Source: Methanosarcina barkeri str. Wiesmoor (lineage in GTDB: Archaea; Halobacteriota; Methanosarcinia; Methanosarcinales; Methanosarcinaceae). Taken from it: DNA of 64,000 nucleotides. The notes beneath the pieces were generated by a model. That model worked only from the letters and a program-made list of their open reading frames with translations, searched no databases and was not told the origin of the DNA. The stretch spans positions 4,464,001 to 4,528,000 of the forward strand of contig NZ_CP009526.1 of assembly GCF_000969985.1 (NCBI RefSeq), written 5' to 3'. Shown here in pieces: positions 1 through 32,976 of this stretch. Within the stretch, counting starts at the first letter, position 1. Every line of letters starts with the position of its first letter. A program made the translations under genes and the position numbers.

Positions 1-1141
1 GCACGATATCCGAAGCAGCTACGGTTGGGCAGGGAGCGATATCCAGACAAATCATGGGCATCTCAGCGAGTAAAGAAGCGCAATCTGCAGGGATATGGCA
101 GACAAGGTCAGCACACATTACAAAAGCTGCATCAACGTCCTTTTCTCGAAGCAAATCTACGGTTGTAAACTCTCCAGGATTATAACGCGGGTGTCCACGC
201 ATGAAGTCAAGCCCGAAGGGATAGCCGTACATATAGGCAGCGACCTGGTTAAAGCCTGCAACGTTGCAGTGGCCACGGAGAGCTCCGAGGGTAAACTTGG
301 AAAAATTATTCAGTTCCTTTACAAAATTCATTGCAATTTCGGCATTCCTATGTTTTCCAATGGATGAGGAGAGCCCGAGACCTACTGAGATAGCTCCGAA
401 TGTGCAGTTCTTCATCATATCGAGCATCTCTTCCATAACAGGAATAGGCACTCCTGTGATCTCTTCTACCGATGGATGAGGAGTCTTTCCATGAAGCAAG
501 GTCATAAGTGCGCTAATCAGTTCGTAATCCGAGCCGGGTTTGAGCTGTACGTGCAGGTCGGATGCTTCAGCAGTTGGAGTTTTTCTCGGGTCTACAGTTA
601 TAACTGTCCTGTCAAAACGTCCGCGTTTTGTCCAGTACCCTCTCGGGAAAACTGCGTACCTTGACATCTGTCTTGGCATGGATTCAAGAGGATTGGTTCC
701 CCAGTAAATCAGGAGGTCAGCCCTGTTTTTCTTCTGCCCTTCAGTTGCACCGACTTTTCCGGATTCCTGGATTCCCATAGCTGTTGGACCGTGGCAGATA
801 GTGGCATTAGAATCAACAATCGCACCAAGGTATTCCCCTAGCTTGAGCCCGATTTCATGTGCTTCACATGAGGTTTCACTGCCCATGAAAAGCAGAGGAC
901 GCTTTGCTGAAACAAGGATATCGGCTGCCCTTTCAAGAGCTTCGTCCCAGGCAGCAGGGGTCAGTTTTCCTTCGCTCTTTATAAGTGGTTGCCTGAGCCT
1001 GTGAGAACTTACAACTTCCTGAAATTTGGCATTTCCCATCTTACATGCGTTTTTAGCTTCAATCTTTCCGTCTCCAAATTCAACCTGGATATCATCACAG
1101 GCCGCCCCGCAGACCGGACAGACTATGTTTTTGTAAATCAT
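1..1141 (-). CDS. fmdB: Molybdenum formylmethanofuran dehydrogenase subunit B (partial, C-terminus outside window)
   Basis: Catalytic subunit that binds the molybdopterin cofactor and reduces CO2 to formate inside the formylmethanofuran dehydrogenase complex. The first 380 codons are present; the gene runs off the left edge. The N-terminus carries four cysteines for a [4Fe-4S] cluster (C8, C11, C15 and C33, beginning CPVCGAAC). C116 in NATICHGPTAMG is the expected metal-ligand cysteine, so this is a Cys and not a selenocysteine form. The ATG lies 2 bp after the fmdD stop, as expected for the last gene of fmdEFACDB. The gene order argues for the molybdenum (fmd) rather than the tungsten (fwd) isoenzyme; sequence alone does not prove metal choice. 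Confidence 0.95.
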   Translation of the reverse strand, partial: MIYKNIVCPVCGAACDDIQVEFGDGKIEAKNACKMGNAKFQEVVSSHRLRQPLIKSEGKLTPAAWDEALERAADILVSAKRPLLFMGSETSCEAHEIGLKLGEYLGAIVDSNATICHGPTAMGIQESGKVGATEGQKKNRADLLIYWGTNPLESMPRQMSRYAVFPRGYWTKRGRFDRTVITVDPRKTPTAEASDLHVQLKPGSDYELISALMTLLHGKTPHPSVEEITGVPIPVMEEMLDMMKNCTFGAISVGLGLSSSIGKHRNAEIAMNFVKELNNFSKFTLGALRGHCNVAGFNQVAAYMYGYPFGLDFMRGHPRYNPGEFTTVDLLREKDVDAAFVMCADLVCHIPADCASLLAEMPMICLDIAPCPTVAASDIV

Positions 1142-1143
1142 AC

Positions 1144-1533
1144 TCACTGCCCTCCGATATAAATTTTCAATACTACATCTTCGGCGCTAAGAACCTCTTC
1201 TTCAGTGGGCTCAATTGATACTGGGGCACCCTTATAGAGAGGAGAACCCGTAGAAAGAGTATCAGGATCGATGATAACATTTGACCAGATAGCCCTTGGC
1301 ATAAACACCTGTCCTGGCTGGACTGAATCCGTACATTTTGTATAAACTACAATCGAATGTTTTCCATTCTGGCTTGTTACTTTCACTTTAGATGGAGAAC
1401 AGAGTGATGCAAAATCCACAGGCGAAATCCAGCATGATGCACACTCCATGGTGTACTCGTCCGTGAACTTGTCCCCGCCTTTGGCAAGCCTGCCTTCATT
1501 AATCGTACTTCCGCTAATGAGTAATACTTCCAT
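1144..1533 (-). CDS. fmdD: Molybdenum formylmethanofuran dehydrogenase subunit D
   Basis: Small subunit (129 aa) with the molybdopterin-dinucleotide-binding beta-barrel fold that in larger molybdoenzymes is the C-terminal domain of the catalytic chain. It completes the cofactor site of FmdB. A longer reading frame extends upstream, but I place the start at the ATG of MEVLLISGSTINEGRLAKG because GAGGTGAG lies just before it and the longer form would overlap fmdC. The protein keeps the family pattern ISPVDFASL and the MPRAIWSN stretch. It sits between fmdC (10-bp gap) and fmdB (2-bp gap), so it is translated from one polycistronic message. Confidence 0.94.
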   Translation of the reverse strand: MEVLLISGSTINEGRLAKGGDKFTDEYTMECASCWISPVDFASLCSPSKVKVTSQNGKHSIVVYTKCTDSVQPGQVFMPRAIWSNVIIDPDTLSTGSPLYKGAPVSIEPTEEEVLSAEDVVLKIYIGGQ

Positions 1534-1543
1534 GCTTCTCACC

Positions 1544-2449
1544 TCAGAGTTCCGGGTTTGTGTCTGCAACCACGTAAAGAGCTCCTTTTGCCCGCTTGCT
1601 AATTGCATAGTCCCCTGTGAATTTCTTGAATTCGCCTATTAACTCAACCTCTCCGGATGTAATGCTATTTTCCATGGATACAAATTCGAAACCTGGGGAG
1701 AAACGCTCGATTTTGCCTCCTATGACTATGGTGCCTCCTGCCATTTCAGCACCTACTCCACGAAGAGCGCTGCCTTTTACGAAGATGAGCCCGCCGTTCT
1801 GGCGGATTCCGCAGAAGCTTTTAACATCGCCTTCAACTAGAATTTCGCCGCCGTCCATGCCGCCTCCTAGCTGGTGGCGCGCCGAACCTTCAATAACGAT
1901 GCGTCCGCCTTTCATGCCGTGCCATTTTCCTCTGTAAGCACAGCCTACATGGTCTCCGGCATTGCCTTTAATATGCAGCAGCCCACCTGTCATTTCCATA
2001 CCTGCCCAGGAATCCGCGTCTCCGTAAACGACGAGCTCTCCTCCTTTCATCCCAGTGCCTACGTGCATGCCAGCAGAACCTTCAATTTCGATTTTTCCTG
2101 CGCTCATGCTTTCACCGATTCTTTTGATCCTCATTGCATCACCTTTTATGCGGATCAGAGTCTCAGCTGCAGAACTGCCCCCATTACCTGTTACTTCAAA
2201 AAACTCGGAGAGAGGATAGGTCTTTGGCCCCTGCCAGACAGACAGTTTTCCGATTTCTTCGGCACTTTTGCCTGCAAAAGAATCAGGAGTTATAACATCG
2301 GCTTCCAGTTTAATGTCAATCGCTTTTTTAGGAATAAGTATTACTTCTGCCATTTCTCCAGCATTTTCGCCAGTAAATGAGCCAGGCTTTATAACTGCCT
2401 CAAGTTTACTCTCAACTTCATTTTCATTAATAAGAACTCCCTCTGTCAT
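1544..2449 (-). CDS. fmdC: Molybdenum formylmethanofuran dehydrogenase subunit C
   Basis: Structural subunit (301 aa) that links FmdA and FmdB/D. It resembles the C-terminal beta-helix domain of glutamate synthase large subunit. From about residue 100 the chain has repeated G-x-x-G-x-x-x-G units (for example GMHVGTGMKGGELVVYGDA, MTGGLLHIKGNAGDHVG, MDGGEILVEGDV), which stack as a right-handed helix. In the solved tungsten enzyme this scaffold holds the complex together. It follows fmdA with a 4-bp gap and is full length for the family. Confidence 0.94.
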   Translation of the reverse strand: MTEGVLINENEVESKLEAVIKPGSFTGENAGEMAEVILIPKKAIDIKLEADVITPDSFAGKSAEEIGKLSVWQGPKTYPLSEFFEVTGNGGSSAAETLIRIKGDAMRIKRIGESMSAGKIEIEGSAGMHVGTGMKGGELVVYGDADSWAGMEMTGGLLHIKGNAGDHVGCAYRGKWHGMKGGRIVIEGSARHQLGGGMDGGEILVEGDVKSFCGIRQNGGLIFVKGSALRGVGAEMAGGTIVIGGKIERFSPGFEFVSMENSITSGEVELIGEFKKFTGDYAISKRAKGALYVVADTNPEL

Positions 2450-2453
2450 TACC

Positions 2454-4208
2454 TCACCTCACAACGTTAATCTTTATGGGAGTCGGATTTTGCAGATACT
2501 TTTCTGGAGTTGGATAGTTGGCAAAGCCCAGAGTGTAGTACCTGAACCACTCCTTCACATCAGCCAGCATTTCCTTTTCCCGCTCGTCTTCTACATGTAC
2601 ATCGGAATAATAAGTCCGCTTTTCAGGTAAGGAAACAATATCACCTTTGACAGCTACAATTTCGCCACCCTTTACGGTGTATTCGGCCTTCCTGAAGGCC
2701 TGAAGTAGAGCTTCATAGTTGTTTGTGTCAAGCTGCTGTGGATTTATGTTATAGACTGTGACATCTCCATCAGCGCCCACGCCAAGAGAACCTTTCCTGT
2801 GGGCCATACCAATTGTTTTAGCGGGATTTGCTCTGGTCAGGATCGCAAGGTCATAGAGAGAAAGTTCCCGGTTTATGCCTCCGAGTTCACTCCTGTCGTT
2901 TGCCCATTTGTGGCATTCGCTGAAGGTCTGTTTCCTGAAAGCCTCAGACATGATCCAGGTCATAACCTCAGGATATTTCGTAAATGGCCCACCATTGGGG
3001 CTGTCCGTGGTCATAATTGTCTTCCAGGGGTCATTAATAAGCAGGAGGCATTCAAGGCCCATTGCCCACTGAAGGCTGTGTACCGGATTGGCTTTAAAGT
3101 AAGTGAAGGGAATGACACCTGACCCACCTTCCATCTCAACGTCAGTATTCGACCATTTGTTTCCTGTAAGCTTGTACATATCCTGGATGGCAGGCCCATC
3201 TCCTGTCATAACCGTGGCTTCTCCGAAAGGTGTGCATCCACTGTCGATTACTACGTGGTCTTTGTTGTTGATGTATTCTGCAATATCTTTTACTCCGGAT
3301 TCGCAGTCTCCCCAAGTAGTGCCTGCAAAACTGTTAAACATCAGATGGGCCAGGTATACGGACCGGTTCCTTGAAGGATCTATTTTGGTTTCAGCCCATT
3401 CCACATCCATGTCCTGCCTGGGCTTTACACCGTCGAGGATTTTGAGGGAATCCTTAGTAATTTCATAACAGCCAGGATGTCCCAGGTTATTTGCATGCAA
3501 GTGAAGAGGTACAGGCAGGCCTAGGAGTTCGTTGACCTCACTAAGCCCTTTTATAGTTTCTCTTGGGGTAACTTCGAAATGGATGTTAGCTTCATCAAGA
3601 GAATGTACGTTTTTACCCCAACCCCAGTTTTCGACTCCTGCAGGATTGACACATTTTATTCCATAGGACTTGTGAGTTTTCATCATCCAGGCCACATAAG
3701 CCGCAGCCTTTTCTATGTCCCCATCATGGAGATAGCGCATCAAAAAGAAGTTGTTTCCAAGTATCAGATAGCCACCCATGTCAAGGAGTGGAGTAGCACG
3801 CATTTCTTCGTGGGTATGGCGAGCTTCAAGAGGAGGAATTGCAGCTTCAAAAACAGTTGTATAACCCATTGCTGCGTAATCGTATCCCTGTTTGTAGACC
3901 GAAGGAACAGTGTAACCTGAGCCTGAATGAGTAAGTGAAGTCTTTTGGAGATTTGTTTTATAATGATCTTCGGGGCGCATCGACCTGCCAGCGTTAACCT
4001 TTGCACCTGCAACATGAGAATGAGAGTCAACTCCTCCTGGCATTACCGTCATACCAGAGGCATCAATAACCTTTGCGTTTTTCAATTCAGCCGTAGAAAG
4101 CTCTCTTACAACTTTTCCGTCCTTGATGAAGATATCCATAATTTCCCCATTTATTTCATTAAGGGGATCAAAGACGTATCCGTTCTTAACTGCAATTGTT
4201 CCTGCCAT
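2454..4208 (-). CDS. fmdA: Molybdenum formylmethanofuran dehydrogenase subunit A (amidohydrolase)
   Basis: Binuclear-metal amidohydrolase (584 aa) that condenses formate with methanofuran; formate reaches it through an internal tunnel from FmdB. Visible active-site elements are DSHSHVAGA (H63, H65) after the first beta strand, K185 in YGIKCVNPAG as the expected carboxylated lysine, PLHLHANN (H236, H238) and the late aspartate in TTDSPNGGPF. Length matches family members. The start ATG has GAGGTGAAATAA in front and directly follows the fmdF stop, so the two genes are translationally linked. Confidence 0.96.
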   Translation of the reverse strand: MAGTIAVKNGYVFDPLNEINGEIMDIFIKDGKVVRELSTAELKNAKVIDASGMTVMPGGVDSHSHVAGAKVNAGRSMRPEDHYKTNLQKTSLTHSGSGYTVPSVYKQGYDYAAMGYTTVFEAAIPPLEARHTHEEMRATPLLDMGGYLILGNNFFLMRYLHDGDIEKAAAYVAWMMKTHKSYGIKCVNPAGVENWGWGKNVHSLDEANIHFEVTPRETIKGLSEVNELLGLPVPLHLHANNLGHPGCYEITKDSLKILDGVKPRQDMDVEWAETKIDPSRNRSVYLAHLMFNSFAGTTWGDCESGVKDIAEYINNKDHVVIDSGCTPFGEATVMTGDGPAIQDMYKLTGNKWSNTDVEMEGGSGVIPFTYFKANPVHSLQWAMGLECLLLINDPWKTIMTTDSPNGGPFTKYPEVMTWIMSEAFRKQTFSECHKWANDRSELGGINRELSLYDLAILTRANPAKTIGMAHRKGSLGVGADGDVTVYNINPQQLDTNNYEALLQAFRKAEYTVKGGEIVAVKGDIVSLPEKRTYYSDVHVEDEREKEMLADVKEWFRYYTLGFANYPTPEKYLQNPTPIKINVVR

Positions 4209-5894: not shown

Positions 5895-5918
5895 CGTTAT
5901 GTTTAAATAAACATAACG
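5895..5918. promoter_or_regulatory. Perfect 24-bp dyad, candidate ModE operator of fmd
   Basis: Two perfectly complementary 11-bp arms (CGTTATGTTTA and TAAACATAACG) flank two central bases, 12 bp upstream of the fmdE start. The core GTTATGT-N8-ACATAAC is repeated with the same spacing upstream of two other genes in the window. The TTATTTAAA-like centre could double as the TATA box if transcription begins near the GTG. CGTTAT/ATAACG arms resemble the bacterial ModE box, and a ModE-like gene lies at 29.3 kb; the assignment to ModE is inference. Confidence 0.7.
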
Positions 5919-6095: not shown

Positions 6096-6609
6096 CAATT
6101 ATTTAAATTCCAACATAACGCAGAAGGATACAGTGTATTTATAGGTAGCTTTTTATATAACTTTTTTACAGGAATGTACTTATTGTATGTTATATCGAGG
6201 CGAAATTCCAATATAAGGGATAGAACCTTAATATTGGCCGGCCACAGAAAAAACACCAGCCAGAGCTCTATATCTTCCAGATATGTAAAACTCAACATAT
6301 CTATAAAAATGGGAGATAAAACTTTCGCGCTCAATATATATAAACATATATTTTATAAAATTATCGATGAAAATAGGAATTTCCTGTTAAAAAAGGACAA
6401 TATAGAGAAATTCTTTTTTTAAAGTTTGGATAAGACGTGCTCTACATACATTATATTTTAAAGCATATCTATTTTAAAGAAGATGTAAACAGAGACAAAT
6501 AATTAATAAGGGGAAAACGAGGGTAAAAATTGAAATTTGCCCAAGTTGCCTGCCCCAATAAGAAAATGTAAATTTCATGTAGTTCTTGGAGAGGAATTTT
6601 CACTCATGC
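6096..6609. other. Non-coding AT-rich spacer between fmd promoter region and binding-protein gene
   Basis: No gene with family-like composition is visible here. Overlapping short frames exist on both strands (about 6023-6422) but lack ribosome sites and protein-like composition. The right part (6360-6600) is downstream of the minus-strand binding-protein gene and may hold its 3' end signals; T-rich runs are present but no clear hairpin. Confidence 0.5.
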
Positions 6610-7722
6610 TCAGGTTTTAGTTGCAGGGTTAAGGAGCGTGTTAAGTTCTTCATCCTTAAGGTCGTAGTGGAAGAACTCCGAGTAGAACTCACGTGTCAGC
6701 TTGGAGAGGTCCATATTTGCAAAACGGTCTGGATACAGCATTTTTGCAGTCCAGGCAGTTCCTAGAATAAGGTGAGGGCCCTGCGGTCTGTCAATCCAGC
6801 AGAAAGGATTCTGAGGAGCAAGGTATACTTTCTTATTTTTCACAGCATCCATACTTGCCCAGAGAGAATCAGAGTAAACTGTCGAATAGAACTGTGGATT
6901 TGACGTGATAATTACCTCAGGGTTCCAATTCATAACCTGCTCGATTGAGACCTGAGTCATGCCGCTTCCGGACGTGAGGGGACAGTCGGCAACGTTGATA
7001 CCTCCACAGATATCAATTACCTGAGAATGTTGCGAGCCTGAAGGATCGGTCATTAGCCCTTTTGGGCCTTCGGCATAATAAACACGTACTTTCTGGTCTT
7101 CAGGAATGTCTTTTACAGTACTGTTGATTTCATTAAGAATAGAACTGCGGAATTCAATCAGTTTTTTTGCCTGGGATTCACAGTTAAGCAGTTTGCCCAC
7201 ATATTCAATAGTAGGATCGGATTGTGTCACAAAAAGAATAGAATCATTAATAGCCACTACCGGAATGCTGCCAAGATTTTCCTGCCTGCGTTCTATAGCT
7301 TCATTAGTTTTTCCATTTGTGGCTGTGCTTTCAATAAAAATGTCAGGATGCATATCAATTACAGTTTCATAATTTCCGGTCTTGCTTCCTAACCAGTTTC
7401 CTATTACAGGTAGATTTGAGTAATTTTCATCCATGAAGGGTTGGGTGAAATTTTGTTTGGAGTTCCAGCCTGCAAGTTTATCCGGTGCAAGCATATACAC
7501 AAGGATGGCGGAAGGTGAAGAAGTACCTATAGTCGAGGATATTTCCGCAGGCACAGTTAACTGCCTTCCCAGCATGTCGGTGATTTGCACGGTACTTGAA
7601 TTCTGAAGCTCAGTGCTTGAGTTTAGTACAGCCTGTTGATCCGTATTTTCTACACATCCACAGAGCATAACAACTGGAAGCAGGAGGAGGAGAAGCACTA
7701 TACTATATATTTTTCGATTCAT
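6610..7722 (-). CDS. Class III ABC-type substrate-binding lipoprotein, possibly molybdate/tungstate (MolA-like)
   Basis: Extracytoplasmic binding protein of the BtuF/FhuD/MolA superfamily (two lobes joined by a rigid helix), 370 aa. The chain starts with a lipoprotein signal ending LLLLPVVMLCGC, then a Thr/Ser/Asn-rich linker. The domain opens with ITDMLGRQLTVPAEISS and contains the typical VIDMHPDIFIES and NWNPEVIITSN segments. I prefer the ATG of MNRKIYS at 7722 because AGGTG precedes it; a GTG 15 bp upstream is also in frame. Relatives bind siderophores, cobamides or molybdate. No permease or ATPase gene is adjacent, so it must share or have lost its partners. A ModE-type dyad 33 bp upstream suggests molybdate or tungstate; substrate is inferred. 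Confidence 0.8.
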   Translation of the reverse strand: MNRKIYSIVLLLLLLPVVMLCGCVENTDQQAVLNSSTELQNSSTVQITDMLGRQLTVPAEISSTIGTSSPSAILVYMLAPDKLAGWNSKQNFTQPFMDENYSNLPVIGNWLGSKTGNYETVIDMHPDIFIESTATNGKTNEAIERRQENLGSIPVVAINDSILFVTQSDPTIEYVGKLLNCESQAKKLIEFRSSILNEINSTVKDIPEDQKVRVYYAEGPKGLMTDPSGSQHSQVIDICGGINVADCPLTSGSGMTQVSIEQVMNWNPEVIITSNPQFYSTVYSDSLWASMDAVKNKKVYLAPQNPFCWIDRPQGPHLILGTAWTAKMLYPDRFANMDLSKLTREFYSEFFHYDLKDEELNTLLNPATKT

Positions 7723-7755
7723 AGAAACACCTGACACACTTTTGATTATTTAGCT

Positions 7756-7777
7756 GTTATGTTCAAACAAACATAAT
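7756..7777. promoter_or_regulatory. Candidate ModE operator upstream of the class III binding protein
   Basis: GTTATGT-N8-ACATAAT, identical to the fmd dyad in left arm and spacing and one base different in the right arm. On the minus strand a TATA-like CTATATGT at about 7780-7787 sits immediately before it, so the dyad would cover the transcription start, as for a repressor site. Confidence 0.65.
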
Positions 7778-27624: not shown

Positions 27625-28805
27625 TAGTCCCCTCTTAATTTCTTCATTCAGAGAAGGCTTGCAATTCCTTCCTTTCATTAATACCGTAATTTACAGTTGC
27701 CCCTACTAAAAGTACAGCTAAAGAACAGTATTTTTGGACAGAACTCCTTGTATATCTGTGTAAATTCTCCATAGAGTATGCTTTCTTCGCTATTTTGAAT
27801 ACATCTTCTATAATTGACCTTACAGATCTGAGTTCTTTCCATTTGCTTATTAACTCTTTAAACTTTGCAATTATTTCTTTGTAGAATTTAATTTCTTTTT
27901 CAGTATTTCTTCTTAAATCAAATATTTTCAGAGGATATCTAAACATATTGAAAAGTTTCTTAAAATTACAGTTTTTCCTTGGAAAAATTAAAGGTACTAC
28001 CTTAAAATTTCTTACAGATATAACGTAGTTTTCATAGGAATAGTATCCTCTATCAGCATAGATAACGTCACCTGCTTTTATTATTCTCTTTCTTTTAAGT
28101 TCTTTAAGTATTTCAGGATAAATTTTAGGTTCTGCTACATTTGCTTCATTAATCAGAAACGCTAAAGGTTTTAATGTTTGAGAATCAAGTGCAAGAGTAA
28201 GTTTCATGCCAATGAAGAAACCTCTATGGGTTGAATGGCCCCACTTGTATTCTTTGTTTTTTAGGCTTTCTTTGGTAATCTTTTTAGCGTGCCAGTTCAG
28301 GTTAAGGTTTATGTCAGTACTATCAATAATAATGTCTCTTGATCCATTTTTTCTCTTAGGGCATAAATCATTCAATATTTCAAAAACAAAAGCAGTAAAC
28401 TCTTGGGGTTCATACTTACTAAGAATGCCATAAACTTCCTTTTCAGTTGGTACTAAACTGATTTTTAAAAAGTTTCTCAAGATTTCTCTTTCTTTTAATT
28501 CCTTTATAGCATAAGAGATTTCACAAGAAAAAAACATGCTTAGAAGAACAATTTTTATAGTAGGTACTGATCTGTGGAGGGGCACAATGCCCCTCCTTGT
28601 AAGAGTTTGCTTACAGAATCTCAAATCAAAAACATTTAATATTTCGGACAACAATTGCCATTTGAAATCTTCATTTAGTGGTATAAGTGGAGGTTTCGTA
28701 ATAATCACCAGAGAAGGATTGAAAATCCTTCTCAATAAAATTTACGATTTTTTATGACATTAATTAAAATTCAGACGAAAAATTGAATGTACTTTTTTGA
28801 GGGGA
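27625..28805 (-). mobile_element. Insertion sequence with DDE transposase
   Basis: Approximately 1.18 kb bounded by short inverted ends: TAGTCCCCTC on the left and, read inverted, TAGTTCCCCTC on the right. One intact transposase gene fills it. I could not define a target duplication with certainty. It separates the exporter operon from modE. Confidence 0.75.
27644..28735 (-). CDS. DDE transposase (IS4/IS5-like fold)
   Basis: Transposase of 363 aa with no internal stops. DIIIDSTDINLNLNWHAKK has the first catalytic Asp, IKAGDVIYADRGYYSYENY the second, and the EDVFKIAKKAYSMENLHRYT region the Glu with the Y-x-x-x-x-x-x-R/K-type helix. N-terminal residues 60-110 look like the usual helical DNA-binding part. 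The IS is probably still able to move, since the frame and both ends are intact. Exact IS family not assigned. Confidence 0.85.
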   Translation of the reverse strand: MRRIFNPSLVIITKPPLIPLNEDFKWQLLSEILNVFDLRFCKQTLTRRGIVPLHRSVPTIKIVLLSMFFSCEISYAIKELKEREILRNFLKISLVPTEKEVYGILSKYEPQEFTAFVFEILNDLCPKRKNGSRDIIIDSTDINLNLNWHAKKITKESLKNKEYKWGHSTHRGFFIGMKLTLALDSQTLKPLAFLINEANVAEPKIYPEILKELKRKRIIKAGDVIYADRGYYSYENYVISVRNFKVVPLIFPRKNCNFKKLFNMFRYPLKIFDLRRNTEKEIKFYKEIIAKFKELISKWKELRSVRSIIEDVFKIAKKAYSMENLHRYTRSSVQKYCSLAVLLVGATVNYGINERKELQAFSE

Positions 28806-29271: not shown

Positions 29272-29868
29272 TCAGTCGGAGCGATCTGTCTCCTTTGAAT
29301 CGATTTTTGTAGGTTCTTTTTCACCGACAATTTTTGCAACCATTACCTCGGTAGATTTAATGACCGCGTAAACCCTGTCTCCGGGTTTGATATCAAGTTT
29401 TTCTACAGCTTCTTCAGTGACTACTGAGGTTATAACTGAGGGTTCCATTTCAATCGTAATTTTAGATACAAGCCCGTTTTTTTTCACTTCCAGCACTTTA
29501 CCAGGTAGCTGGTTTCTAGCTGATAATTTGAAGCTTACATTTTCCCAGGCTGTTTCATCTCCGATGGTTTCACTAATAAGCTGCTTACTGGCTTCGTACT
29601 CAGCCAACAATTTTCTTCCGAGGTCGGTCAGGAAAGTACCCTGATTTTTTCCCCCTCGTACTGTGAGGACTGCAGGTTCGCCAAGAGCTTCATTCATTTT
29701 TTTAAGTACTATCCAGGCTTGTTTATATGATATCCCAAGCTTCTTACAGGCTTTCCGAAGCGAGTGCTCTTCTTCTATTGTCTTTAGTAATGTAGCTCTT
29801 CCAGCACCCATGACGGTCTTTCCGTCTTCTGTAAACCAGACCTTTGTTCTTGCTTTCACAAATTTCAC
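29272..29868 (-). CDS. modE: ModE-type molybdate-responsive regulator with one Mop domain
   Basis: Transcription regulator of 195-198 aa. Residues 18-105 are the ModE winged helix (GAGRATLLKTIEEEHSLRKA, KKLGISYKQAWIVLKKMNEA, RGGKNQGTFLTDLGRKLL). Residues 118-185 are a single Mop/TOBE domain with SARNQLPGKVLEVKKNGLVS and IKPGDRVYAVIKSTEVMV, the oxyanion-binding fold. Bacterial ModE has two Mop domains per chain; one is present here, so oxyanion would be held between subunits. Two GTG codons compete for the start; the second (29859) has AGGTGA 5 bases before it. Upstream lies the wtpA pseudogene. Matching dyads at 5895, 7756 and 30558 are candidate targets. Confidence 0.9.
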   Translation of the reverse strand: MKFVKARTKVWFTEDGKTVMGAGRATLLKTIEEEHSLRKACKKLGISYKQAWIVLKKMNEALGEPAVLTVRGGKNQGTFLTDLGRKLLAEYEASKQLISETIGDETAWENVSFKLSARNQLPGKVLEVKKNGLVSKITIEMEPSVITSVVTEEAVEKLDIKPGDRVYAVIKSTEVMVAKIVGEKEPTKIDSKETDRSD

Positions 29869-29948
29869 CTTTTACACGGAGCACATAGACAGAACTTGCC
29901 CTGAATTGGGCATATACCGGAACTCCATGGAGAATACCCATTTCCTTT

Positions 29949-29995
29949 GTTGATTGCCGGGTTATGAGGGCATTAAGAAAAACGCCGCAATCAAC
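29949..29995. other. Hairpin between wtpA remnant and modE
   Basis: GTTGATTGC and GCAATCAAC form a perfect 9-bp stem with a 29-base loop, 80 bp upstream of modE. It may be a terminator of the former upstream operon on the minus strand or a leader structure of modE. The rest of 29870-30180 holds no gene that I recognise, though it may contain further transporter debris. Confidence 0.5.
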
Positions 29996-30179
29996 CTTCC
30001 CCTAACAAGAGTTTCCAGCATATAGAATTCGGTAACTCTGCCCTGTAGAGAGTTTCTGATGCTGGATTGTGCAGAAGTTTTACTTAAAACTATGTTCTCA
30101 GGACTAAGAAAGGCATATACCTAACTCCCTGCTTCAATATTCCATGAAGCATGAATAAATTATCTCTCCAGTTTCAATT

Positions 30180-30556
30180 CTTAAAAATCCACATACGCAG
30201 AGATAACCCTTCCGTTTAACATATCCTCAAACATTCCGAAGCTAGCTATCCAGTTGTCAACCGATTAAAGCAAGTAATCTTTTAAATTCTATGTGCTTCC
30301 CGCAATTTCTCGCTGGAAATCGACCTCAAAATTCTGGGCTTAGAACTAGGTTTCAAGTTCTTCAAAAGGTTTGCCCAAATTCCTGCATGGAAAACTACCA
30401 GAACTTCACTTCCCCAACAGAAACATTTCCAGAGGTATTTTCCGTTGAGTTTGTTATTTTGTTCTAGCCCTGACCACCAACGCAGATAATGCCGGCAAAA
30501 GCAAGCATCATTATGAGAACTGCCATCTACCTGAATACTCTGGTTTTACCTCTCAT
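30180..30556 (-). pseudogene. wtpA: Decayed tungstate/molybdate-binding protein gene (wtpA/modA type)
   Basis: Reading the minus strand in shifting frames gives a recognisable WtpA-like protein: a signal peptide (MRGKTRVFR, stop, MAVLIMMLAFAGIICVGGQG), a Ser/Thr/Asn linker (NKITNSTENTSGNVSVGEV), VVFHAGI, GKPFEELET, stop, F, stop, AQNFEVDFQREIAGST, and further on DNWIASFGM. These match the WtpA pattern FHAGSL..PFEE(L)E..F.A..P.VD.QRE.AGS. At least five stops and two frame changes make it non-functional. A ModE-type dyad sits directly upstream of its first ATG. It was probably the first gene of a lost wtpABC operon next to modE. Confidence 0.78.
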
Positions 30557-30557
30557 G

Positions 30558-30579
30558 GTTATATGATTTTGGACATAAC
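30558..30579. promoter_or_regulatory. Candidate ModE operator upstream of the wtpA remnant
   Basis: GTTATAT-N8-ACATAAC: the same 22-bp layout as the fmd and class III binding-protein dyads with one changed base in one arm. On the minus strand a TATA-like AAAAATATGG precedes it and the pseudogene ATG follows one base after. The site has survived although the gene has not. Confidence 0.62.
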
Positions 30580-31056
30580 AAATGCCATATTTTTGAGGAT
30601 GTATAACTACTTTTTGCAAAAATGGCTTTGGGGCTATAATAACCCTTTATTCAATAAACACACGCTGATTAATAATGGAAATCACAAAATAGACTGAACA
30701 TATCTTCAAAAAATAAAAAATAAAAACTGATGGTTAAATATATACAAATAAAAACTACAAGCAAGACAAGTACAAATAAAAAAATACAAACAAGAAAATA
30801 CTAATAAGAATAATAAATGTGATTTTAATTCAAGTTAATTTGTGCAGGTGAAAAAAAGAGTTCCTCAGACAGTAAAAAACTAAATATATATTATAATAAT
30901 AGTAAAAGTTTATTAGTTTATTGTGTCAATACGATGTCAATATTATAAGATCCTATGTCTTAAAAGTTGAATAATATCCTGAAAGAATAATATCCTGAAA
31001 ATTTCTATAAAACGAGTGACTCTCAAACACTAACTAATATTTTTGAAGGTTTCTTT
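30580..31056. other. AT-rich spacer, promoter region of the symporter
   Basis: About 480 bp with no gene. It is dominated by A-rich tracts with near-repeats of ACAAATAAAAA and AAGAAAATAC (30720-30810). The symporter promoter should lie near the TATA-like TAAATATATATTATAAT at 30882-30898, which would give a leader of roughly 130 bases. A dyad CAGGTG..CACCTG is not present. Confidence 0.45.
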
Positions 31057-32976
31057 ATGAATGGTTATAGTATTTTCCTTGTAATGCTCACAGTCTATAT
31101 AGCTGGACTTGTGGCTATTGGCTGGTACTTCAATAGTAGACAGAAATCCATTACAGACTTCTGGCTTGCTGGCCGCAGGATAGGGCCTTCCGCCCTTGGA
31201 TTTTCAGCTGCAGCGTCCTGGCTGACAGCGGGAGGAATTCTTGCAGTAATAGGTTATTATATGCTTCAGGGAATGGGCTCTATATGGGCTTTTGTAGCTC
31301 CAAACATCATTTCCCTCCTATTCCTTGCTGTGCTTGTGAAGAAAATCAAAAATTTGCCTGCAATCACCCAGCCTGAACTTCTGGAACAACGTTATGGCAG
31401 TATAGTCCGATTGCCAATTGCCCTGATCATAACTGTTGTAATGATTCTTTTTTCAGTATCCGATATTACAGGGCTTTCCCTTGTGCTACAAACTTTTTAT
31501 GGTGTTGATCCTCTCTATGCCGCAGCTATTGTTGCAATTGCGGTTTCTCTTTACGTAACTCTCGGAGGGTTGTATGCAGTTATCTGGACAGACACTATCC
31601 AGTTTTCATTCCTTGCTCTTTTTGCAATAGTAATGGCTTTTGCCACAGTAGGAACAGTCGCTGATGGAGGCCTCAACACTTCTGCAATAAGCGTTTCACA
31701 GCTTTTCGGAAATGTATCTGGAGACTGGTGGAACCCCTTCTCAATCGGCCTTCCCATGGTTTTAATTTTTTCCTTTGCCTTAATTCCGGGCTGGATTACA
31801 GAACAAGACCCCTGGCAGAAAATCTGGTCTGCAAAAGATGAAAAATCTGCTAGTGTAGGAATGGTACTTGGCGCTCTCATGATCACTGTGATCTTTGCAG
31901 TCTGCGCTGTGATTGCAATAGCTCTAAACAATATATACCCTGAAATAGCAGGAATGGGCTATCCAGCAGGAATGGCCTCTGCAGAGCCTGCGCTCCTGTC
32001 CTTTGTCAGTGAGCGTTTCGCCTCAGCACCGGTAGTAGTAGCCTTCAGTGCAATCGGGCTTGCAGCAGCTTCCATGTCCTGTACAGACACTTTTTCAACA
32101 TCAGGTGCTTCCTGTATTTCAAGGGATATTTACCAGAGGTATATAAAGCCAGACGCTACAATGAAGGAAATGATGCTGGTAAACAGGGCCAGTGTACTGT
32201 TTATCATACTCGCTGCAACAGCAGGTTCATTCATCATTCCCAATATTCTTGATGCCATTCAAATTGCAACTTTCATTGCGAGTTCTTCTTATTTCTTCCC
32301 ACTAATGGGAGGCCTGTACTGGAAGCGAGCTACCAAGGAAGGAGCGTTTGCAGGCATGGTAATCGGGTTTATTGTTCAGGTGTCTCTTGTGGCTCTGGAC
32401 CTTATAAATACACCTCCTCTTGCCGCTAGTTATCTGGAAAGTGTTCACCCCATTCTCATGGGCCACGGAGTTATTGTGGGAATGTCTCTGAGTGCAATTG
32501 CTTTCTTTGGAGTTTCACTAATGACAAAACCCTCAAGCAAGGTTAATCTTGCACCTTTCTTTGAAGAGGAAGCCAAAGAACTTTCTCTCTCCGAAACGAA
32601 AAAAATCAATGAGAAAGACCCTGAATATAGCGCTTTCCTTAAAAATCTTAATGAAAAAGTTACAGGAGAACGTGCTCACCTCCAGCTCAATCTCCATACT
32701 TCCGGAAATCTTAGCTGGCAAGAAGTGACTGAAAACCTTAAAACAATGTCTCCTGCGTGGGTAACTCCTACAGGGATTGATTCAGTCTACAGGTTGACTC
32801 ATGGAGATATGCTTGCTTGTGTTGCAGTTACAAGGGGAACCGGAGAAAGGGATATCTGGCTTAAAGCAGAGCCCAGGCTTGAAACCCTGGGAACGCAGAA
32901 GAGAGAACTTTTCACGGCCTATGAAGAGTTGAAAAAAGTGTTTGGTCAGAAAAATGTAAAACTTGACTACATCTAA
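31057..32976 (+). CDS. Sodium:solute symporter family protein with C-terminal cytoplasmic domain
   Basis: Secondary transporter of 639 aa. About 13 membrane segments fill residues 1-495. Family features include FWLAGRRIGPSALGFSAAAS near the second helix, the sodium-site helix with VTLGGLYAVIWTDTIQF, and IPGWITEQDPWQKIWSAKDE. AASMSCTDTFSTSGA is the eighth-helix motif. Residues 505-639 form a soluble extension with acidic linker and the block NLHTSGNLSWQEVTENLKTM. The substrate (amino acid, pantothenate, proline or monocarboxylate) is not evident. It is monocistronic and convergent to the next gene. Confidence 0.88.
   Translation: MNGYSIFLVMLTVYIAGLVAIGWYFNSRQKSITDFWLAGRRIGPSALGFSAAASWLTAGGILAVIGYYMLQGMGSIWAFVAPNIISLLFLAVLVKKIKNLPAITQPELLEQRYGSIVRLPIALIITVVMILFSVSDITGLSLVLQTFYGVDPLYAAAIVAIAVSLYVTLGGLYAVIWTDTIQFSFLALFAIVMAFATVGTVADGGLNTSAISVSQLFGNVSGDWWNPFSIGLPMVLIFSFALIPGWITEQDPWQKIWSAKDEKSASVGMVLGALMITVIFAVCAVIAIALNNIYPEIAGMGYPAGMASAEPALLSFVSERFASAPVVVAFSAIGLAAASMSCTDTFSTSGASCISRDIYQRYIKPDATMKEMMLVNRASVLFIILAATAGSFIIPNILDAIQIATFIASSSYFFPLMGGLYWKRATKEGAFAGMVIGFIVQVSLVALDLINTPPLAASYLESVHPILMGHGVIVGMSLSAIAFFGVSLMTKPSSKVNLAPFFEEEAKELSLSETKKINEKDPEYSAFLKNLNEKVTGERAHLQLNLHTSGNLSWQEVTENLKTMSPAWVTPTGIDSVYRLTHGDMLACVAVTRGTGERDIWLKAEPRLETLGTQKRELFTAYEELKKVFGQKNVKLDYI

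Follow-up and report, generated by a model that had tools for sequence, protein, structure and literature searches.

The locus described here lies in a window of 64,000 nucleotides of the Methanosarcina barkeri str. Wiesmoor genome (genome G000, G000:C2:4464001-4528000; relatives carry G handles of the same kind). Starting from a divergent symporter gene and reading along the minus strand, one finds in order a ModE box, a wtpA relic, a wtpC relic, and modE:

31057..32976, plus strand: sodium:solute symporter, divergent, the upstream neighbor in 25 of the 27 aligned genomes
30582..30588, minus strand: relic of the wtpA TATA box, reading ATGGCAT where most relatives have TTTATAT (upstream-region alignment)
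30558..30579, no strand assigned: ModE box, a 7-8-7 dyad, GTTATAT-GATTTTGG-ACATAAC on the plus strand (exact class match, orthologous position)
30280..30556, minus strand: wtpA pseudogene, 5′ part (~92 codons), with stops and frame shifts (three-frame translation, tblastn, DNA alignment)
30263..30280, minus strand: deletion junction (blastn against G012, positions 830 to 3239)
29876..30263, minus strand: wtpC pseudogene, 3′ part (codons ~220-348), with several stops (NF040840 matches, tblastn)
29272..29868, minus strand: modE, Mo-responsive regulator (ModE_repress plus Mop/TOBE), intact and under purifying selection

The symporter is complete in 23 of the 25 genomes that have it as neighbor and cut by the end of the record in 2; it was not found upstream in G011, and the G014 contig is too short. 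An intact DDE transposase (PF01609) is present at 27644-28735, some 0.5 kb past modE on its 3′ side, with no part of it inside the fossil operon. An Rfam scan of the window reports three tRNAs only, and nothing at the wtp/modE locus.

The original prediction was that a recognizable WtpA pattern persists at 30180-30579 through several stops and changes of frame, and both three-frame translation and tblastn bear it out. On the minus strand, frame 2 has a signal-peptide-like stretch (about 30538-30470), frame 1 has FHAG, and frame 0 has both KPFEELE and VDFQREIAGS, the pieces being separated by stops and frame shifts. Using as tblastn query the intact genus operon of G001 (wtpA, wtpB, wtpC, modE), the similarity to WtpA that had been expected of this locus is significant, with residues 46-78 matching 30393-30295 (E-value 3e-5). 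At the DNA level, the relic at 30556-30280 has 210 of 277 bases identical to the wtpA of G012, in an alignment with 16 gap positions, of which 14 are in the window sequence and 2 in that of G012. The tblastn search also places WtpC residues 220-306 at 30261-30001 and residues 308-348 at 29998-29876 (E-value 6.7e-31), and a profile search with NF040840 independently recovers the same two pieces. There is no tblastn match to wtpB at the window locus; that gene is completely gone.

A blastn comparison shows the window to be collinear with the intact G012 locus through the upstream region of the symporter, the box, and wtpA as far as 30280, at which point the G012 alignment jumps 2409 bases and resumes in wtpC at 30263. 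Relative to G012, a deletion of ~2.4 kb took the 3′ end of wtpA, the whole of wtpB, and the 5′ part, that is most, of wtpC. No uninterrupted frame is left that could encode a functional WtpA, as all three frames carry stops and frame shifts, and a profile search finds no WtpA above the family cut-off anywhere in the genome. The remains align collinearly with the intact orthologues of this locus and carry disabling lesions, as a wtpABC pseudogene should. The remnants match two proteins of the WtpABC tungstate/molybdate ABC importer (WtpA, NF003196; WtpC, NF040840) in the same order and operon position, but unlike a functional WtpABC they lack wtpB altogether and the greater part of both wtpA and wtpC. 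The WtpA-type tungstate/molybdate importer is dead, and has been lost at this locus. In announcing a lost importer, the original prediction was right about the WtpA-type system and incomplete about its extent, since the loss hit wtpABC and not wtpA alone. A residual TOBE mini-protein encoded by the tail of the window wtpC was considered and rejected on account of several stops and a frame change.

Downstream, modE is still intact, as had also been claimed. The frame at 29272-29868 is open, its product combines a ModE_repress DNA-binding domain with Mop/TOBE as a ModE regulator does, and dN/dS against the sister genome G003 is 0.04. The TIGR00637 match has an E-value of 3.5e-18 but stays below the curated cut-off (65.5 of 98.5 bits); TIGR00638, at 63.9 bits, is over its cut-off of 55, and TOBE is also found. 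Across seven pairs compared after loss, dN/dS is 0.04-0.25, and where measured, modE is under purifying selection after the loss of the operon. Close named relatives include M. spelaei MC-15; its ModE and that of the window are 94% identical.

The erosion of this operon is not confined to the window. Out of 30 genus genomes, 27 have an alignable wtpC-modE junction; those left out are G015 and G016, without full-length modE, and G018, whose contig ends there. The intact wtpABC that was expected upstream of modE in other Methanosarcina is found complete in 12 of the 27, and the remaining 15, window included, show losses. A tree built from modE and symporter DNA requires seven losses, at least five of which are forced by well-supported branches. 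The loss groups are the window with G003; G014; the G013 clade; G023 with G024; G002; G028 with G005; and G008/G026, the last counted as one loss for their same relic pattern, even though the tree, with little G026 sequence, does not pair them. The operon has thus eroded about seven times, and on each occasion both modE and a short block from the 3′ region of wtpC survived. Two variants of the locus can be mentioned here. G005 (locus L082) retains an intact wtpA, with wtpB and most of wtpC gone, so that the binding protein is left as an orphan with a ModE box in front of it. G009 (L093) has a partial tandem duplication of ~80 bp, covering the end of wtpC and the start of modE, just before modE.

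We say that a dyad is a ModE box if it reads GTTATRT-N8-AYATAAC and stands at the start of a Mo/W-related gene in a genome with modE. The dyad at 30558-30579 is such a box, with an exact fit and a position orthologous to that of the boxes upstream of intact wtpA in relatives. The E. coli modA operator (GTTATATTGTCGCCTACATAAC) has the same 7-8-7 dyad with the same arms, and the window box likewise sits beside the start of a Mo/W importer and a modE gene; unlike the E. coli operator, it fronts a dead gene and adjoins a broken TATA box, in an archaeal promoter context. ModE elements are reportedly conserved in Archaea, to go by the title of the 2003 work of Studholme and Pau. At the 13 genus loci with an intact wtpA, a TATA box and the dyad precede the start, in the form TTTATAT-NN-GTTATRT-N8-ACATAAC or one to two bases off it, and in nearly all of them directly before the ATG. 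The window does not retain a functional wtpA promoter of this form, as its TATA box reads ATGGCAT instead of TTTATAT. The description of the dyad as nearly intact therefore holds for the arms of the box, and not for the TATA box of the same promoter.

How much should one read into the preserved arms? Undecayed arms are also what one expects of a living operator, which is what the box had been taken for. But the chance of seeing at most one change in the 14 arm bases is 0.06-0.20 (for a neutral divergence of 0.29-0.20), so the preservation of the window box does not show selection. Moreover, modE persists without a recognizable box in 8 of the 14 loss genomes that could be tested (the sister G003, and G029, G027, G025, G004, G013, G024, and G023), so modE evidently does not need it. 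In G028, G008, and G002 the dyad has decayed and the TATA box remains; in G026 the dyad has decayed and the TATA region is partly unread. The idea of a living operator finds no support in these observations, and to judge from the sequences the window box has the look of a relic.

What has been preserved best in the fossil operon is, instead of the operator, a block of ~50 bp within the wtpC relic, about -250 to -191 from modE:

30046..30100, minus strand: conserved block embedded in the wtpC relic, kept in 15 of 15 loss rows and in the intact rows
30096-30077, minus strand: core of the block, AACATAGTTTTAAGTAAAAC
30071-30050, minus strand: second part of the block, CACAATCCAGCATCAGAAACTC

All 15 loss genomes have the block, ~230 bp before modE in most, and further upstream in G002 owing to an insertion before modE. 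Pairwise identity among the 15 loss rows is 0.875 in the block, compared with 0.640 in the upstream flank, 0.702 in the downstream flank, and 0.858 at the start of modE. Variable columns within five loss clades number 28 of 300 in the block vs. 174 of 870 in the flanks (p = 1.3e-5), while the block does not differ from modE (30 of 410, p = 0.34). The G028/G005 pair runs in the opposite direction (9 of 60 block columns variable, 18 of 174 in the flanks).

The same stretch stands out where the operon is alive. Scanning wtpA, wtpB, wtpC, and modE of the 12 intact operons in 1119 overlapping windows of 12 codons, synonymous identity reaches its maximum at the block (codons 275-286; 0.93 vs. a mean of 0.63, z = 3.8). 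Three genera (g1, g4, and g5) share the codons ATA GYT TTA AGT AAR. Comparing g1 with g4 at conserved residues, codon identity is 0.88 in the core and 0.46 elsewhere in wtpC, and in g4 the core differs by one base at most although WtpC itself is only 67-71% identical. The distance from block to modE is 230 bp in g5 and 358-369 bp in g4. In g2, g9, and g14, wtpC also precedes modE, but the core codons differ. In most rows the core holds a TATA-like TTTAAGTA, which would make only a fair TATA box, and conservation reaches ~25 bp past it. No second copy of the block was found in this genome, the site being single, and the core matches with two mismatches that were checked in other genera (L147, L151, L153, L154, L157, L161, and L162) fall outside wtpC/modE loci. 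The clustering of deletion endpoints was discarded as evidence for being too weak, since seven endpoints uniform along wtpC would all fall before the block with a chance of ~0.17. A possible antisense frame spanning the block was also discarded by eye, as its start codon is lost in G029, G005, and G012 for example, and the frames break in G013 and G003.

Our reading of the whole, to which we give a probability of about two in three, is a fossil wtpABC-modE operon in which modE has been kept and the block within wtpC is a candidate promoter or control element of modE. The importer genes were removed by an internal deletion and by point decay, with modE staying intact. Its retention would reflect the role of ModE as the Mo/W sensor for many further promoters that have boxes (vnf and anf nitrogenases, fmd, other importers); because ModE, judging by the boxes, serves so many of them, modE presumably cannot go with its operon mates. 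Eight loss genomes have modE and no recognizable ancestral promoter, so modE must in all likelihood be expressed from something nearer. The block is the only upstream DNA kept in all eight at a gene-like level of conservation, and from this we infer that it is the promoter or control element. If modE is transcribed from the block, or controlled via it, deletions that stop short of the block would be tolerated. The box before the dead wtpA is probably still able to bind ModE, and would control nothing important because its promoter is broken. A more specific proposal is that the block is a cis-regulatory DNA element in the wtpC coding sequence of at least three genera, that it controls modE, and that it is the unit kept by selection through about seven independent decays; this we put forward tentatively, at something short of an even bet.

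One could instead propose that the old wtpA promoter with its ModE box still drives and autoregulates modE across the shortened operon, as the intact arms at the ancestral position in the window, and the TATA box standing before a decayed dyad in G028, G008, and G002, might suggest. The broken window TATA box, the sister genome and seven more loss genomes with an intact modE and no recognizable box, and an arm preservation that is not significant by itself make this quite improbable. A second possibility is that the block is conserved as a small RNA, an antisense RNA, or an RNA structure and not as a promoter. That conservation extends beyond the TATA-like core is in its favor; on the other hand, folding the window leader gives no structure (z = -0.64), RNAalifold on the 27 aligned rows finds no structure that beats those of shuffled columns, whichever strand is taken (z = +1.3 and +0.4; leader, +0.2), and the spacing to modE is variable. 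We regard the RNA explanation as unlikely.

It could also be that the block has no function now, and that we are looking at the inherited coding conservation of a recent pseudogene. The block is the most conserved stretch of intact wtpC as well, so recent losses would look conserved in any case, and the G028/G005 pair indeed has no excess of block conservation. But changes inside loss clades are about twice as frequent in the flanks as in the block, and in intact genes it is the synonymous sites, not just the protein, that are conserved, which leaves this explanation with little probability. A candidate modE control element in the block remains the reading we prefer.

As a fossil, the locus adds another case to a known class, the decayed operon that retains a relic operator. 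Internal promoters occur inside operons, and the block would resemble them in that a downstream gene is served by a control element in the preceding coding sequence; unlike internal promoters generally, here the host gene has died repeatedly and the embedded candidate has outlived it. If that is true, the coding sequence of a gene can die while the switch embedded in it survives. No literature on wtp decay or on an element embedded in wtpC was found among the titles and abstract openings of the open-access papers searched. On sequence grounds, the block is a good candidate, and one open to testing, for a control element that survives its host gene. The genus offers a replicated natural experiment in operon decay in which the importer goes and the sensor stays, and a comparison among the fossils indicates which DNA the sensor gene depends on. 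Should the block be the modE promoter, this would account for the persistence of Mo/W control over nitrogenases and formylmethanofuran dehydrogenase after the ancestral operon was lost, and the idea could be tested in genetically tractable Methanosarcina. There is also a caution here, namely that a readable operator before a dead gene need not be in use.

The sensor still has much to control. In the 30 genus genomes there are 75 exact GTTATRT-N8-AYATAAC sites, vs. 8 for a reversed control, and the two genomes without full-length modE (G015 and G016) have 0 and 1 sites. Sites with zero or one mismatch in this genome lie upstream of vnfH-vnfD, the anfD cluster, fmdE-F-A, modA, Peripla_BP_2 proteins, and the wtpA relic, and a site with two mismatches lies upstream of a ModA-like/WtpC-like importer. 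In the window, five sites of the class are found with up to two mismatches where 0.23 are expected, which is above chance. They include:

5896..5917, no strand assigned: ModE box without mismatch, 14 bp ahead of the FmdE-family ORF in a formylmethanofuran dehydrogenase operon, part of the same regulon
7756..7777, no strand assigned: ModE box with one mismatch, 19 bp ahead of a Peripla_BP_2 substrate-binding protein (6610-7737)

Further upstream of the FmdE-family ORF there are two weaker boxes with two mismatches each (6098-6119 and 6280-6301). We take the Peripla_BP_2 protein at 6610-7737 to be possibly a Mo/W binding protein of the MolA type, and similar pairs of a box and a Peripla_BP_2 protein are seen at G000:C2:572906 and 3195224. 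The genome still encodes importers, both ModABC-type and Peripla_BP_2-type systems with ModE boxes upstream. As these remain, Mo/W import as such, to go by the gene content, is not lost, and the wtp importer is dispensable.

For the Methanosarcinales, PMC9765008 states that ModE controls modABC and affects nitrogenase regulation, and by that statement the ModE regulon as such was already known. The V-nitrogenase cluster of this genome (L126, G000:C2:3170000-3180000) comprises vnfH, two PII-like ORFs of about nifI size, and a vnfD that passes the VNFD cut-off; three ModE-type boxes precede vnfH.
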